This document shows positions 3,579-34,567 of a DNA stretch of 64,000 bases, piece by piece. Made by a program: the position numbers and the translations under genes. Position 1 is the stretch's first letter; every line of letters starts with the position of its first letter. Source of the stretch: Veillonella criceti. GTDB taxonomy: Bacteria > Bacillota > Negativicutes > Veillonellales > Veillonellaceae. The stretch lies in assembly GCF_900460315.1 (NCBI RefSeq), contig NZ_UHIO01000001.1, forward strand, positions 1,703,501-1,767,500. The letters are read 5' to 3'. The notes beneath the pieces are model-generated. The model was not told the origin of the DNA. It did not search any database and saw nothing but the letters and a program-made list of their open reading frames with translations.

Positions 3579-3667
3579 GGAGAGGTGTCCGAGTGGTTTA
3601 AGGAGCTGGTCTTGAAAACCAGTGACTCCGCAAGGGGCCGTGGGTTCGAATCCCACCCTCTCCGCCA
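3579..3667 (+). tRNA. tRNA-Ser (anticodon TGA)
   Basis: 89-nt class II tRNA with CCA encoded. The acceptor stem is GGAGAGG (3579-3585) with CCTCTCC (3657-3663), followed by G and CCA. The anticodon arm CTGGTCTTGAAAACCAG gives anticodon TGA, reading UCA. There is a long variable arm (TGACTCCGCAAGGGGCCG) and a T-arm GGGTTCGAATCCC. It sits at the left edge of the A+T-rich defence island. Confidence 0.97.
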
Positions 3668-16746: not shown

Positions 16747-17976
16747 TTATATTTTTAAAGTTTTAATTCGCTCAATGGCACGTAAGGTATTTTCACGACT
16801 ACCGAAAGCTGTAAGTCGTAGATACCCTTCGCCACAAGGTCCAAAACCGGCGCCTGGTGTACTTACGATATGTACTTTTTCTAATAATAAATCAAAGAAT
16901 TCCCAGCTGGTCATACCCGTTGGCACTTTAAGCCAAATGTAAGGAGCATCAATGCCACCGAATACAGTTAAGCCAATGGCTTCTAGGCCTTCACGGATAA
17001 TGCGGGCATTTTCTTTGTAGTAAGCAATAGCTTCACGGGTTTGCTTGTAACCGGCTTCGGAATAGACGGCTTCGGCAGCTCGCTGAACGATATAAGGAAC
17101 ACCATTAAATTTGGTACATTGACGACGATTCCACAATGGATTTAAGGCCTGCTTTTCGCCGTTAGCCGTATTAATTACCAAGTCTTTAGGTACGACTGTG
17201 TAGGCGCAGCGTGTACCTGTGAAACCAGCTGTTTTAGAGAAAGAGCGGAATTCGATAGCCACCTCGCGGGCTCCTTCAATTTCATAGATACTGTGGACAG
17301 TATCTTCACTACTGATAAAGGCTTCATACGCAGAGTCAAACATGAGCACGGTATCATTGGTTTTACACCAATCTACCCATTCTTTAAGGCGTTGACGGGT
17401 TAACACGGTACCTGTTGGATTGTTAGGACAACAAAGATAGACAATATCTACACGCTTTTCAGGGAAGGCTGGGGAGAAACTGTTTTCTGCATTCGTTGGT
17501 AAGTACACAATATTTTCAAATTTGCCATCTACGAATTGGCCTGAACGACCACCCATAACATTGCTATCTAAGTAAACGGGGTATACTGGGTCAGTAATAG
17601 CTACTGTATTGTGGGCACTGAATAATTCTTGGATATTGCCAACATCAGATTTAGCACCATCAGAAATGAATACTTCGTCAATATCTAGTTGGATACCCCG
17701 TGGTTTGTAGTCATGCTCAATGACGGCTTGACGTAAGAATTCATAACCTTGTTCAGGGCCATAACCACGAAAGGTATCGGCTTGACTCATTTCATCAACT
17801 GCTTTGTGCATGGATTCAATAACAGCAGGGGCTAGTGGTTGGGTTACATCGCCAATACCTAAGCGAATAATGTCGGCATCAGGGTGTGTTTTTTGAAATT
17901 CCGCTACTTTACGAGCTATGTTAGCAAATAAATAGGAACTTTGAAGATTGGAATAATTTTCATTGACTAAAGCCAT
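16747..17976 (-). CDS. dapL: LL-diaminopimelate aminotransferase
   Basis: 409-residue fold-type I PLP enzyme. It converts tetrahydrodipicolinate directly to LL-2,6-diaminopimelate, the short route to lysine and peptidoglycan meso-DAP. Family marks are [59 protein letters not shown] and the Schiff-base lysine in [22 protein letters not shown] precedes the ATG. Its 5' region is unusually long, with a structured RNA and an intrinsic terminator between a promoter and the gene, so attenuation is plausible. Confidence 0.95.
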
Positions 17977-18144
17977 AGGAGACCTCCTTTTAAAATGCTA
18001 TGTAACGACTATATTACAGAGGTTCTTTACGCATAGATAATATAGCTAAAGGATTTAAAACTATATAATATAGAAAATATTAAATTTATTGTTTTATTTT
18101 ACTATATATGTGACCTATATGGCAATAAAGATAGTAAAATAAAG
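17977..18144. other. Leader between attenuator-like terminator and dapL
   Basis: No gene. It contains a 13-bp perfect inverted repeat with arms at 18093-18105 and 18131-18143 (TTTATTTTACTAT and its complement). The outer arm abuts the T-run of the terminator on the minus strand. It could form a hairpin that competes with, or follows, the terminator. Confidence 0.45.
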
Positions 18145-18178
18145 AAAAACAGGAATCCGGGGAGGGATTCCTGTTTTT
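18145..18178. terminator. Intrinsic terminator in the dapL leader
   Basis: 14-bp perfect stem AAAAACAGGAATCC / GGATTCCTGTTTTT with a 6-nt loop. On the minus strand it ends in a T-run, placing a strong stop about 170 nt upstream of dapL. It either ends a small RNA or attenuates dapL. Confidence 0.85.
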
Positions 18179-18199
18179 CTTGTAAGGGGAGTGTTAGTG

Positions 18200-18323
18200 T
18201 TAATCAAATGAAATATCGATTACCTACATCGGCTGAACAGGGAGGGTTCAAATCCGATATAGTTCCCTGTAATCAATGATAGAGGTAACCCGAATGGGGT
18301 ATCGGAATTACCATTCATTTGAT
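18200..18323 (-). ncRNA. Structured RNA upstream of dapL (unidentified; riboswitch or small RNA)
   Basis: About 120 nt closed by a 10-bp perfect helix, ATCAAATGAA (18203-18212) with TTCATTTGAT (18314-18323). Inside, ACAGGGA/TCCCTGT (18237-18243, 18264-18270) and ATCGG/CCGAT (18228-18232, 18254-18258) interleave, giving an H-type pseudoknot. Further helices, GGTAA/TTACC and CCC/GGG, can form. The minus strand is favoured: a promoter lies just outside it and an intrinsic terminator follows. It does not carry the signatures I know for lysine, SAM, T-box, TPP or c-di-GMP aptamers. A 6S-like or other stand-alone RNA remains possible. Confidence 0.6.
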
Positions 18324-18326
18324 GAT

Positions 18327-18355
18327 ATTATAATAAGCTATCAGTATGAAAGCAA
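18327..18355 (-). promoter_or_regulatory. Promoter of the structured RNA/dapL leader
   Basis: On the minus strand there is TTGCTT (18350-18355), a 17-bp spacer, then a perfect TATAAT (18327-18332). The expected start near 18320 falls at the closing helix of the structured RNA. Confidence 0.65.
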
Positions 18356-18470
18356 AATGAACGTTTTGAGAAATTATCGACTTTTTTTGTTAAATTTTTG
18401 CATTTAAGTTAATAGGCGTAAATTCTCGTAAACCCCAGTGTATATAGTAGTTGGCATTTATCCTAGAAAT

Positions 18471-19193
18471 TTAATGTACTATTGATTTAATTATATGTCC
18501 ATTAACACCATCAATAATTAATTCATAGGTCAAGCCAGAACGTGCCGCTTTGATTTGATAGAATGGATGCTTTTGAAATTCATGAGGTGGCGTACGACTA
18601 AAGTCGTTAGCAGGCCTTGTTTTAGGCTCGCTATTTTGATTAACAGGTACATTATTTACTTCTCCATTAGGTATTGGTTCTATTAGGGGTGCTTTAGCGC
18701 TAACTGCATTTTTATGAGTTGCATTTGTTTTTTCAGGTACTTTCAATGGTGGTAGTGAGGTCACATTACCATTTTCTTCGGGAATTACCACATTTTCAGA
18801 ATCACCGGCATCATCTTGGGATGTTACATTACATGTATTGGCATGATTTTTACTTAATTGAGATGGTGCTGGTAAATCATCAAAGGTGATGAGTGATATT
18901 TCTTTAAATGTGAGTTCGCTGAGGGGAACGCCTGTATTAATAGACGTTAATTCTTTAATACGATCTTCACTGAGCAATGACATATTATTAGCCGTAGCTT
19001 GGGCTTTCACCATTTCAGAACGAGCCGCTGTTACTTTGGCTTGTTCTTCAGCTTCTAAATAATCGTGAATCCCATAGACTACAGCACCAATGATACAGAC
19101 CGCAATAGATAGGGAGAGCAGACGACGAATCCGTCGCGTTGGAGGTTCTGTATCATTCGTTTCTACAGAAACGGGTTGTAATAAATGTTTCAT
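18471..19193 (-). CDS. Membrane-anchored protein with C-terminal PepSY-like segment, two-component partner
   Basis: 240 residues. One membrane helix (about 25-46, LLSLSIAVCIIGAVVYGI) is followed by a short coiled-coil-like stretch. Then comes a long low-complexity Pro/Asn/Glu-rich linker (about 100-205). The C-terminal tail FYQIKAARSGLTYELIIDGVNGHIIKSI resembles a half PepSY repeat. Its start overlaps the end of the histidine kinase by 4 nt, so the two are co-translated. PepSY proteins beside kinases are thought to sense or inhibit outside the membrane; that role here is inferred. Its last codons end an operon of three. Confidence 0.6.
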   Translation of the reverse strand: MKHLLQPVSVETNDTEPPTRRIRRLLSLSIAVCIIGAVVYGIHDYLEAEEQAKVTAARSEMVKAQATANNMSLLSEDRIKELTSINTGVPLSELTFKEISLITFDDLPAPSQLSKNHANTCNVTSQDDAGDSENVVIPEENGNVTSLPPLKVPEKTNATHKNAVSAKAPLIEPIPNGEVNNVPVNQNSEPKTRPANDFSRTPPHEFQKHPFYQIKAARSGLTYELIIDGVNGHIIKSIVH

Positions 19194-20650
19194 GGTAAAT
19201 CCTTTCCAGAGGCCTCAACGGTCGTTGTAGGAAATTCCAAAATAAAGCTAGTTGACACATGAGGTTCACTTACAGCGTAGGCTTTAGCTTGGTGTAGTTT
19301 TATAATGTTTTGTACAAAATAAAGTCCTAAGCCAAGTCCTTGGTCTGCCTTTTTAGTACGAGCTTGATCAACTTGATATAATCGGTCCCAGATTTTAGCC
19401 AAGTCCTCTTCATTAATGCCTTCACCATTATCACTAACAGTGATGCGAATGGCTTCGTCCGTTTTGTCTAAGGCAATGGTAACCGTGTCTTTGGTAAATT
19501 TAATGGCATTATCCACTAAGTTGCCAACGGCCCGTTTTAAAAAGGGGAGATTACCAGTTATGGATAGATTTGGCTCAAGTGTAGCTTGTAAAGTGATAGA
19601 TTTTTCTTTACAAATACGACGATAACTATCGACAACTTCTTGCATCATATGACTTAAATCAAGGGGATCCTTTTTGATATTATCCATGTTATCAAGACGG
19701 GCAATATCTAATAATTGTGTGACCATAGCCGTCATAAAACGGCTTTGCTGGAAAATATGTTCAAAACTTTCTTTGGCTTCGTCTATATTATCAATATAGG
19801 CTCTACCAAAATCACTTTCTGCTTGAATGACTGCAATGGGGGTTCGTAATTCGTGAGATACATCAGAACTGAATTGTTTCTCGCGAAGGGATGAGTTTTC
19901 TAAGCTATCCAACATGCTATTGAAAGTTTGCGATAGGGCTGCAATTTCATCATGACTGTCGACGAGTTGTTCAATTCGCTGTGATAAGTCACGCTTTTGA
20001 CCAATAGTAGCAGCTGTTTTTGTCATATTACGAATGGGGCGTAAGCCACGTTTAATAATCCAATAACCGCCACTGGTACCAATGACTAAGAAGATGACAC
20101 CCCCTAAGAGTAGGGACCAAAGCATGATATTAGCCGCTCGACTGGCGGTCGTAGCTGGTAAAACGCCGCGTACCCAACCATGAAAAGCCGGATCAGCTAC
20201 TGGTGCATCATAATAGTAGAAAGTCGAATTTTTTACTGTTATTTCTGTAATATGATGTGGTGATAGCATACTTTCTGGCGGAAAACCATCAGGAATTGCG
20301 CCCTTAATAGCGACCCCGTTGTCCATGTAGAGTACAGTAAATACCCCTTCTTGGAATGGCCGAAATCGTGTTAAATTATCGGCGGTATTAATGACTCGTG
20401 ATTGCAGTGTGCTACGCATTTCTGAATCTTCCCACAATTGTGTGAATTGCATAATGAAGACGGAGAGCATGAGTAGCATGAGTAGTAAGAAAATGGAATA
20501 CCAACCCGTAATTTTTAATGTAATGGGTAATCGGTTGAATGGATTGATACAAGTGCCATTCTCGTTGCGAACAAAGAGGGAACGCAGCCAATGAAACCAT
20601 TGGCTGATTCCCTGTAAGTTTGAGTTTCTATTCTTCCACTTTGAATACAT
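19190..20650 (-). CDS. Sensor histidine kinase
   Basis: 486 residues. Two membrane helices (about 48-70 and 175-200) bracket an extracytoplasmic sensor of about 100 residues. Then come HAMP (about 200-255), HisKA with phospho-acceptor His266 in SSDVSHELRTPIAV, and HATPase with N-box NLVDNAIKF, G1 DNGEGI and G2 GLGLGLYFV. It is expected to phosphorylate the response regulator encoded immediately upstream. Start ATG 20650 has GAGG 8 nt before it, inside the regulator gene; a GTG at 20659 would abut that site. Signal unknown. Confidence 0.92.
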   Translation of the reverse strand: MYSKWKNRNSNLQGISQWFHWLRSLFVRNENGTCINPFNRLPITLKITGWYSIFLLLMLLMLSVFIMQFTQLWEDSEMRSTLQSRVINTADNLTRFRPFQEGVFTVLYMDNGVAIKGAIPDGFPPESMLSPHHITEITVKNSTFYYYDAPVADPAFHGWVRGVLPATTASRAANIMLWSLLLGGVIFLVIGTSGGYWIIKRGLRPIRNMTKTAATIGQKRDLSQRIEQLVDSHDEIAALSQTFNSMLDSLENSSLREKQFSSDVSHELRTPIAVIQAESDFGRAYIDNIDEAKESFEHIFQQSRFMTAMVTQLLDIARLDNMDNIKKDPLDLSHMMQEVVDSYRRICKEKSITLQATLEPNLSITGNLPFLKRAVGNLVDNAIKFTKDTVTIALDKTDEAIRITVSDNGEGINEEDLAKIWDRLYQVDQARTKKADQGLGLGLYFVQNIIKLHQAKAYAVSEPHVSTSFILEFPTTTVEASGKDLP

Positions 20651-21302
20651 AGCCAACACCTCGTACGGTATGAATTAATTTTGCTTCGTCGGCTACATCA
20701 AGTTTTTTACGTAAATCCTTAATATATACATCAATTAGGTTAGAATAGCTTTCATAATCGTATTCCCATACATGATCAAGAATCTGTTGACGAGATAGTA
20801 CGATATTTACATTGCTAGCTAAATAATATAATAAATCAAATTCTTTAGCCGTTAATACTAATTCGTGGCCATGCAAAGTAGCAGTACGACTTTGACTATT
20901 AATTGTTAAAGGACCTGCTTCTAAATCGTTGTGAGCATGGTTGTAGCTACGACGAGATAATGCATAAATACGAGCGATTAACTCTTCAAATTCAAAAGGT
21001 TTGACTAAATAGTCATCGCCACCGTGGTTAAACCCTTTAATTTTATCTTGAAGAGCATCTTTAGCTGTTAAGAATAAAACAGGTGTCTTATTACCTTCTT
21101 GACGCAAATGTTGAACTACTGTGAAACCATCCATCTTAGGTATCATTACATCCATGACTACGACATCATAACTAGATGTATTAATATGGTCTAAGGCCGT
21201 TTCACCGTCAAAACAGCAATCAACTGTCATAGACTCTACGCGGAGACGTTTAGCTATAATATTATTTAACATTTCTTCGTCTTCAACTAGTAAAACTTTC
21301 AT
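20628..21302 (-). CDS. OmpR/PhoB-family response regulator
   Basis: 224 residues. The receiver domain has acidic pocket EDEE (7-10), phospho-acceptor Asp51 in VVMDVMIPKMDG, and the conserved Lys in DDYLVKPFEFEE. The C-terminal winged helix (about 130-222) shows LTAKEFDLLYYLASN and VDVYIKDLRKKL with HTVRGVGYVF. First gene of the operon with the kinase and the PepSY-like protein. The arrangement resembles CusR/QseB-type systems, but no target gene can be named. Confidence 0.94.
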   Translation of the reverse strand: MKVLLVEDEEMLNNIIAKRLRVESMTVDCCFDGETALDHINTSSYDVVVMDVMIPKMDGFTVVQHLRQEGNKTPVLFLTAKDALQDKIKGFNHGGDDYLVKPFEFEELIARIYALSRRSYNHAHNDLEAGPLTINSQSRTATLHGHELVLTAKEFDLLYYLASNVNIVLSRQQILDHVWEYDYESYSNLIDVYIKDLRKKLDVADEAKLIHTVRGVGYVFKVEE

Positions 21303-21594
21303 ATAATCACTCCTGTCTTACAGAAATAAGCCTGTTTCACGCCCAGAGGGAAAGTAACAGACTATAATAAGTAATAAATTGTATGCCGAATCTTATTAAG
21401 AGACTCTTCATAATTAATTATAACAATTAATTAATAGCGATTTTATGCGCCCAGTATAGCGTAAGGGAATGAACTCCTTATGAAGAGATATCCTTTATGC
21501 ATTAAATTTATGATAACTAAATTGTGTACCTTTGTGTTTTATGCATAGATTGGACGTTTTTTGGACGTTTGACAAAAATCATAAAAAAAAACGG

Positions 21595-34231: not shown

Positions 34232-34251
34232 AAGAGTTTTTGTCGTCTATA

Positions 34252-34342
34252 ACATCTTCCTACGACGGCATTATCCGTATCAGGTATAAGGGTCGAAGTT
34301 AGATGACTTCCTCTCAGCCTACATTCATAAGCTCCCCTGAAA
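34252..34342 (-). promoter_or_regulatory. TPP riboswitch (THI element)
   Basis: On the minus strand it has all conserved TPP-aptamer blocks in order: AGGGGAGC, GGCTGAGAGG, CGACCCTTATACCTGAT, GGATAATGCCG and CGTAGGAAG. Binding of thiamine pyrophosphate should favour the following terminator and switch off thiW-cytX. Confidence 0.96.
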
Positions 34343-34567
34343 TTTCTATGGTGATTATAGCACAGCTTAGTATGATTGTGCAACTGAAATTGTGTGCTTT
34401 ACAGGAATTGATGAGTATGCTATTATAAGACAATCATTTAAATATGTATCTGCCACCGGGTAGAGTGCGTAAGCATGTTGTGCATATCAGTAGGTCTTAG
34501 AAGATATGTATAATGTGTTTTTTTATTTTATAAGGGCATTGATAATTTGAGATAGAGGAGAGGCAGT

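Follow-up and report, generated by a model that had tools for sequence, protein, structure and literature searches.

On the minus strand of the window (the whole 64,000-nt stretch of Veillonella criceti DNA analyzed here), ahead of dapL, sequence comparison identifies a free-standing small RNA (sRNA) gene of ~180 nt (18142–18323) that is previously uncatalogued and conserved throughout Veillonella. Its predicted transcript starts near 18323, the first base of a closing helix (P1) and 7 nt past the −10 element, and ends with an intrinsic terminator at 18142. The RNA strand from 18325 to 18139 folds with a minimum free energy of −66.4 kcal/mol, whereas shuffled sequences average −34.5 kcal/mol; with z = −8.07 and 0 of 200 shuffles as good, the fold is more than chance would produce. 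Farther upstream on the same strand are genes for a sensor histidine kinase (19190–20659; HAMP, HisKA and HATPase_c) and an OmpR/PhoB-family response regulator (20628–21302; Response_reg and Trans_reg_C), the proposed activator of the sRNA. Between the kinase and the sRNA, the minus strand also encodes a 240-aa protein (18471–19193) that matches nothing in Pfam or NCBIfam and has a seemingly PepSY-like C-terminus; this protein is found in close relatives and absent from V. magna and V. montpellierensis.

The RNA is predicted to form a closed three-way junction followed by an unpaired linker and a 17-bp terminator. The structured core (18203–18323) is closed by P1, the perfect 10-bp helix already described in the initial annotation (18314–18323 / 18203–18212), in which the predicted 5′ end of the transcript, AUCAAAUGA or a variant of it, pairs with UCAUUUGAU in 21 sequences. 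Inside P1 lie the P2 hairpin (18284–18312), whose C-rich loop (AUACCCCAUU) keeps its C-run and whose stem carries compensatory changes in both Veillonella groups, and the P3/P4 stem with an asymmetric 5′ bulge, which ends in the apical P4 hairpin (18233–18249) with its C-rich loop CCCUCCCU. The linker that follows, ACUAACACUCCCCUUACA (18181–18198), is identical in alignments of all 21 species and is our proposed main seed. Compensatory changes in both groups are also found in the terminator (18142–18181), which had been recognized earlier with a 14-bp stem, but the stem is a perfect 17 bp (18142–18158 / 18165–18181), with the loop CUCCCC in the window's group.

Covariation, the check that the initial annotation had proposed, supports this fold in both groups. 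In the alignment of the window's group, 98.2% of the cells pair and 9 pairs are changed on both sides, compared with a shuffled mean of 2.6 (0 of 500 shuffles as high); for the 12 sister-group sequences the corresponding values are 100% and 5 pairs, compared with a mean of 1.2 (again 0 of 500). A covariance model built from the sister group only (R1) matches the window at 18143–18323 with 55.4 bits (E = 8e-10), and also matches V. magna and V. montpellierensis.

An H-type pseudoknot had been proposed within the core. The 7-bp ACAGGGA/UCCCUGU helix that it requires is indeed present (18264–18270 / 18237–18243, the second strand within P4), but the dominant inner fold is the nested three-way junction: the helix conflicts with four nested pairs, and forcing it in nested folds costs 3.1–7.2 kcal/mol. 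It is pairable in all seven window-group sequences (100%), and because six of its seven pairs never vary there, covariation provides no evidence for or against it. The C-rich bulge of the sister group, AUCUCCCG, cannot form the pseudoknot. It is possible only in the window's group and might there, as a trait of this lineage, mask one C-rich loop.

Homologues of the sRNA are present, one per genome, in 21 Veillonella species that span both genus-level groups. A DNA search recovered the full element in all 7 window-group genomes (79–100% identity) and a short strong match in the sister group. The 18-mer ACUAACACUCCCCUUACA occurs once each in 20 of 21 genomes (7/7 window-group species and 13/14 sister-group species) and, even with one mismatch allowed, is absent from all other genomes among 380 Negativicutes; V. 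agrestimuris also carries the sRNA, beyond the 20 family genomes that match the 18-mer. In an organism-named collection, the species on the window's side include V. ratti, V. seminalis, V. magna, V. intestinalis and relatives, and those on the sister side V. parvula, V. atypica, V. rogosae, V. denticariosi, V. tobetsuensis, V. caviae, V. montpellierensis, V. agrestimuris and others; the few matches in unrelated genera fall in unrelated sequence contexts. Searching a sample of 120 Negativicutes with R1 found only Veillonella, and the weak matches that a search up to E 10 gave in neighboring genera, at best E 0.001, look like terminator matches. One sister-group species, represented by a 240-contig assembly (G023), keeps the regulator and its box, and no sRNA copy was found in it. 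The phage and virus collections gave no relevant match to the sRNA.

What else might the segment be? At Rfam gathering thresholds, the only matches in the whole window are a TPP riboswitch (34240–34348, minus strand; 70.2 bits, above the gathering score) and a tRNA (3579–3664), and at E values up to 10 there is no credible match on the sRNA strand. The strongest sub-threshold match, Phe_leader (E = 0.004), falls on the other strand, where it covers the terminator and AT-rich flank. A known class such as 6S RNA was the outcome that the initial annotation had named as fatal to its proposal, and the ~180-nt size and closing helix would fit 6S RNA (RF00013) or another catalogued RNA. We give this a negligible probability, since no known class matches the sRNA strand above chance, RF00013 included, and a genuine 6S RNA is found elsewhere in the genome (G000:C1:2162000–2162172, 90.8 bits). 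That the segment instead codes for a small protein is extremely improbable: a 32-codon ORF from an ATG at ~18318 is open in six close relatives, but it has no Shine-Dalgarno sequence, its ATG lies ~5 nt from the predicted transcript start, and neither V. magna nor any Veillonella s.s. retains the frame. Moreover, the pairwise codon differences are 79 non-synonymous versus 21 synonymous, the pattern expected of stem compensation and not of coding.

The remaining alternative at the level of gene identity is a cis-acting riboswitch or transcription attenuator of dapL, which was part of the original proposal. In its favor, the RNA precedes dapL, shares its strand and has a terminator at its end, and dapL does begin about as far on as had been noted (~170 nt; its start at 17976 is 166 nt past the terminator). 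Synteny nevertheless makes this reading highly unlikely. The two adjoin in the window and in its close relatives but nowhere else: V. magna and V. montpellierensis have no dapL nearby, and other, opposite-strand genes follow their sRNA, while in most Veillonella s.s. the sRNA sits between opposite-strand genes. Promoter, fold and terminator are kept in these genomes, so the sRNA is not a dapL switch, and the conserved linkage to a downstream gene that is general for riboswitches and attenuators is not seen. Furthermore, the predicted fold has no antiterminator interleaving with the terminator, and dapL has a promoter-like site of its own past the terminator (TTGCCA-18-TAAAAT, 18096–18125, minus strand; 10/12 consensus), which recurs in Veillonella sp. 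R32. The initial annotation had itself seen no lysine-riboswitch, T-box or SAM signatures, and Rfam covariance models for these and other cis-regulators agree, with no riboswitch or T-box family match. Its other suggestion, a stand-alone small RNA of roughly 180 nt, is borne out by a promoter, fold and terminator that persist where dapL is absent nearby.

The promoter of this stand-alone sRNA gene holds the best clue to its control. The pair previously identified, TTGCTT (18355–18350) and TATAAT (18332–18327) with a 17-nt spacer, is there, but TTGCTT is not conserved as a −35 element. What is conserved is a direct repeat with an 11-bp period, TTCATTTTGCTTTCAT (18346–18361, minus strand), which we propose to be a response-regulator box. 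The likely −10 element is TATTAT (18330–18335, minus strand), aligned in 21 species, although the overlapping TATAAT (18327–18332) is also possible. All 21 sRNA promoters have TTCAY-N6-YTCAY followed after exactly 10 nt by TANNNT; that is, an OmpR-family type of direct repeat at a fixed distance from the −10 element, as in csRNA promoters, is found in 21 of 21.

A second box and −10 element (21453–21484, minus strand) precede the response-regulator gene and suggest autoregulation. The strict box pattern occurs 5 times in the whole genome of the window's organism, compared with 2 occurrences for a reversed control, and these sites include the sRNA promoter and one 182 nt before the start of the regulator gene, which lies just upstream of the sRNA. 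A weight matrix run over 800 kb of the same genome gave 34.4 bits for the regulator box and 33.7 bits for the sRNA box, both of which were among its training sites, compared with a maximum of 17.2 bits for the reversed matrix. The third-best site scores 23.5 bits (G000:C1:1578431, plus strand) and lies 54 nt before a gene for a HydF-like GTPase; in G023, a box also precedes a HydF-like GTPase gene (L246). Each of 28 family genomes has one orthologue of the response regulator, and in 27 of the 28 the box precedes its gene, V. montpellierensis having the gene without the box. The regulator box is strict in the window's close relatives and in other genera, whereas in V. magna, G023 and Veillonella s.s. 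its second half reads CTCAY. At the regulator promoter of Veillonella s.s., the assignment of the −10 element is uncertain. The strongest evidence linking sRNA and regulator is that in Veillonella s.s. the sRNA is no longer beside the regulator, yet the box is kept at both genes. The sRNA appears to be switched on by the neighboring cell-envelope sensor system, whose regulator would bind the shared box and act as an activator. Support for this new sRNA family is good with respect both to the gene itself and to its place in a two-component regulon; its function is proposed by analogy.

The box is not confined to these two genes. In 12 family genomes the pattern occurs 3–11 times per genome, compared with 0–6 for the control, and box-bearing promoters precede genes for OmpH/Skp-like, HlyD-type membrane-fusion, HtrA-like protease, PepSY and PAP2 proteins. 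In the window's own genome, a box lies 165 nt before an OmpH/Skp-like gene (G000:C1:1583744, plus strand; L082), and in two other genera OmpH genes likewise have boxes in front of them (L239, L240, L241). Elsewhere in the Veillonellaceae the box is found before HlyD-type membrane-fusion, HtrA-like and PAP2 genes (L227, L234, L250, L236, L238), and PepSY genes carry it in a neighboring genus. This distribution suggests a regulon that is larger in other Veillonellaceae than in the window's genome. Judged by its gene content, it resembles an envelope-stress regulon, and envelope stress would be the likely signal.

A second recurrent feature is the set of C-rich single strands. Each of six species examined has three to four unpaired CCC runs: in the window's group they lie in the P2 loop, the P4 loop and the linker, with a C-rich terminator loop as well, and in other lineages in the P2 loop, the P3 bulge, the P4 loop and the linker. 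They are kept between lineages while the loops and surrounding sequence are replaced. Their enrichment is modest relative to mononucleotide shuffles (P = 0.004–0.15) and not significant relative to dinucleotide shuffles (0.10–0.43).

Several characterized sRNAs share parts of this design. In streptococci, CiaR, also an OmpR-family regulator, acts at csRNA promoters on TTTAAG-N5-TTTAAG, which has an 11-bp period and lies 10 nt from the −10 element; the csRNAs have an unpaired region complementary to the Shine-Dalgarno sequence and a terminator within 250 nt (PMC3091779). The Veillonella promoter has the same geometry, an 11-bp-period repeat 10 nt before the −10 element, but the repeat sequence, the regulator and the bacteria differ, the core is a three-way junction rather than two stem-loops, and there is one copy per genome rather than several. 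With a different repeat and fold, the sRNA does not belong to the CiaR csRNA family in the strict sense. LhrC1–5 of Listeria monocytogenes depend on LisRK, are induced by cell-envelope stress, and pair with the Shine-Dalgarno region through three redundant CU-rich sites, in a loop, a single strand and the terminator loop (PMC4132741). The Veillonella sRNA likewise presents several unpaired C-rich sites and appears to be under two-component control, although for LhrC control and targets are experimental whereas here they are predicted; the two have no known sequence similarity, and LhrC has five copies. RsaE-type sRNAs of low-GC Firmicutes use an unpaired C-rich UCCC motif to block ribosome binding (cited in PMC4132741); the motif is alike, and Rfam shows no sequence or structural match. 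In E. coli, CpxQ is the sRNA output of a two-component envelope-stress system, with a Skp-family chaperone tied to the response (PMC4817254). CpxQ, however, comes from the cpxP 3′ UTR, whereas the Veillonella sRNA is an independent gene, and what the OmpH/Skp gene offers on the Veillonella side is a box-bearing promoter, not a shown target.

Taken together, we consider it likely that this is a stand-alone, trans-acting sRNA, activated by the response regulator through the direct repeat and blocking translation by C-rich anti-Shine-Dalgarno pairing. The response regulator encoded at 20628–21302 would bind the TTCAY-N6-YTCAY repeat, which replaces a −35 element, and turn on transcription from the P1 helix (~18323) to the terminator (18142); through the second box, it would also control its own gene. 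The C-rich single strands, chiefly the linker ACUAACACUCCCCUUACA, would then base-pair with the G-rich Shine-Dalgarno regions of mRNAs, for envelope proteins or others, and block their translation. Repression by pairing, probably through several exposed C-rich loops, is favored because LhrC, RsaE and other sRNAs use similar C-rich motifs to bind Shine-Dalgarno sequences (PMC4132741).

Target prediction did not set the real linker apart from chance. Over 675 start regions in 800 kb of the window's genome, duplex energies of the real linker were no better than those of shuffled linkers, and the top predicted pairing, with the start of a LysP-like permease gene (G000:C1:1555508–1556959, minus strand; −22.4 kcal/mol), was equaled by 31 of 60 shuffled linkers. 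Exact anti-seed sequences next to an ATG in 28 genomes fell at scattered genes and recurred only among close relatives, and no conserved target was found. Moderate pairing with the linker is predicted for the mRNA of the regulator itself (rank 21 of 675) and for the OmpH mRNA (rank 50), no more than a hint of feedback. In the regulator leader (21303–21352, minus strand), a hairpin-like sequence, CTGTAAGACAG, lies beside GGAGTG before the regulator start and is kept in close relatives; it is partly complementary to the linker, and feedback at this site is possible.

Two other modes of action could also use this architecture. Several similar C-rich single strands on a rigid, conserved scaffold might act as a decoy that captures a protein, specific for C-rich RNA or otherwise RNA-binding, instead of contacting mRNAs, and the finding that shuffled linkers pair as well as the real one would fit such a role. 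We regard a protein decoy as unlikely: a direct reading of the alignment finds no CsrA-type GGA loops in the sister group, and pairing with Shine-Dalgarno sequences is a known role of C-rich loops in low-GC bacteria (PMC4132741). Multiple equivalent C-rich sites would also suit a sponge that captures another small RNA, a G-rich one, by base pairing, but no partner RNA is known, and we think this decidedly improbable. Anti-Shine-Dalgarno repression of mRNAs remains our preferred reading.

Veillonella is a human commensal genus and among the few Firmicutes groups with an outer membrane. In the open-access literature we found no regulatory sRNA described for it. The element would supply it with a defined sRNA gene for which activator, promoter box, start, end and seed are all predicted; it also yields a ready Rfam-style family and removes a mistaken dapL riboswitch from the picture. 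In addition, it opens to direct testing the question whether an sRNA arm governs envelope biogenesis in diderm Firmicutes in the way known from proteobacteria. A broader idea, which we hold only tentatively and would place short of an even chance, is that an outer-membrane Firmicute has in this sRNA a principal, conserved output of its envelope-stress two-component system: a multi-seed anti-Shine-Dalgarno RNA whose scaffold loops have been rebuilt between lineages while its C-rich seeds, invariant linker and regulator box were kept, even after the gene moved away from the regulator. If true, the envelope-stress sRNA arms known from proteobacteria and Listeria would have an independent counterpart here.
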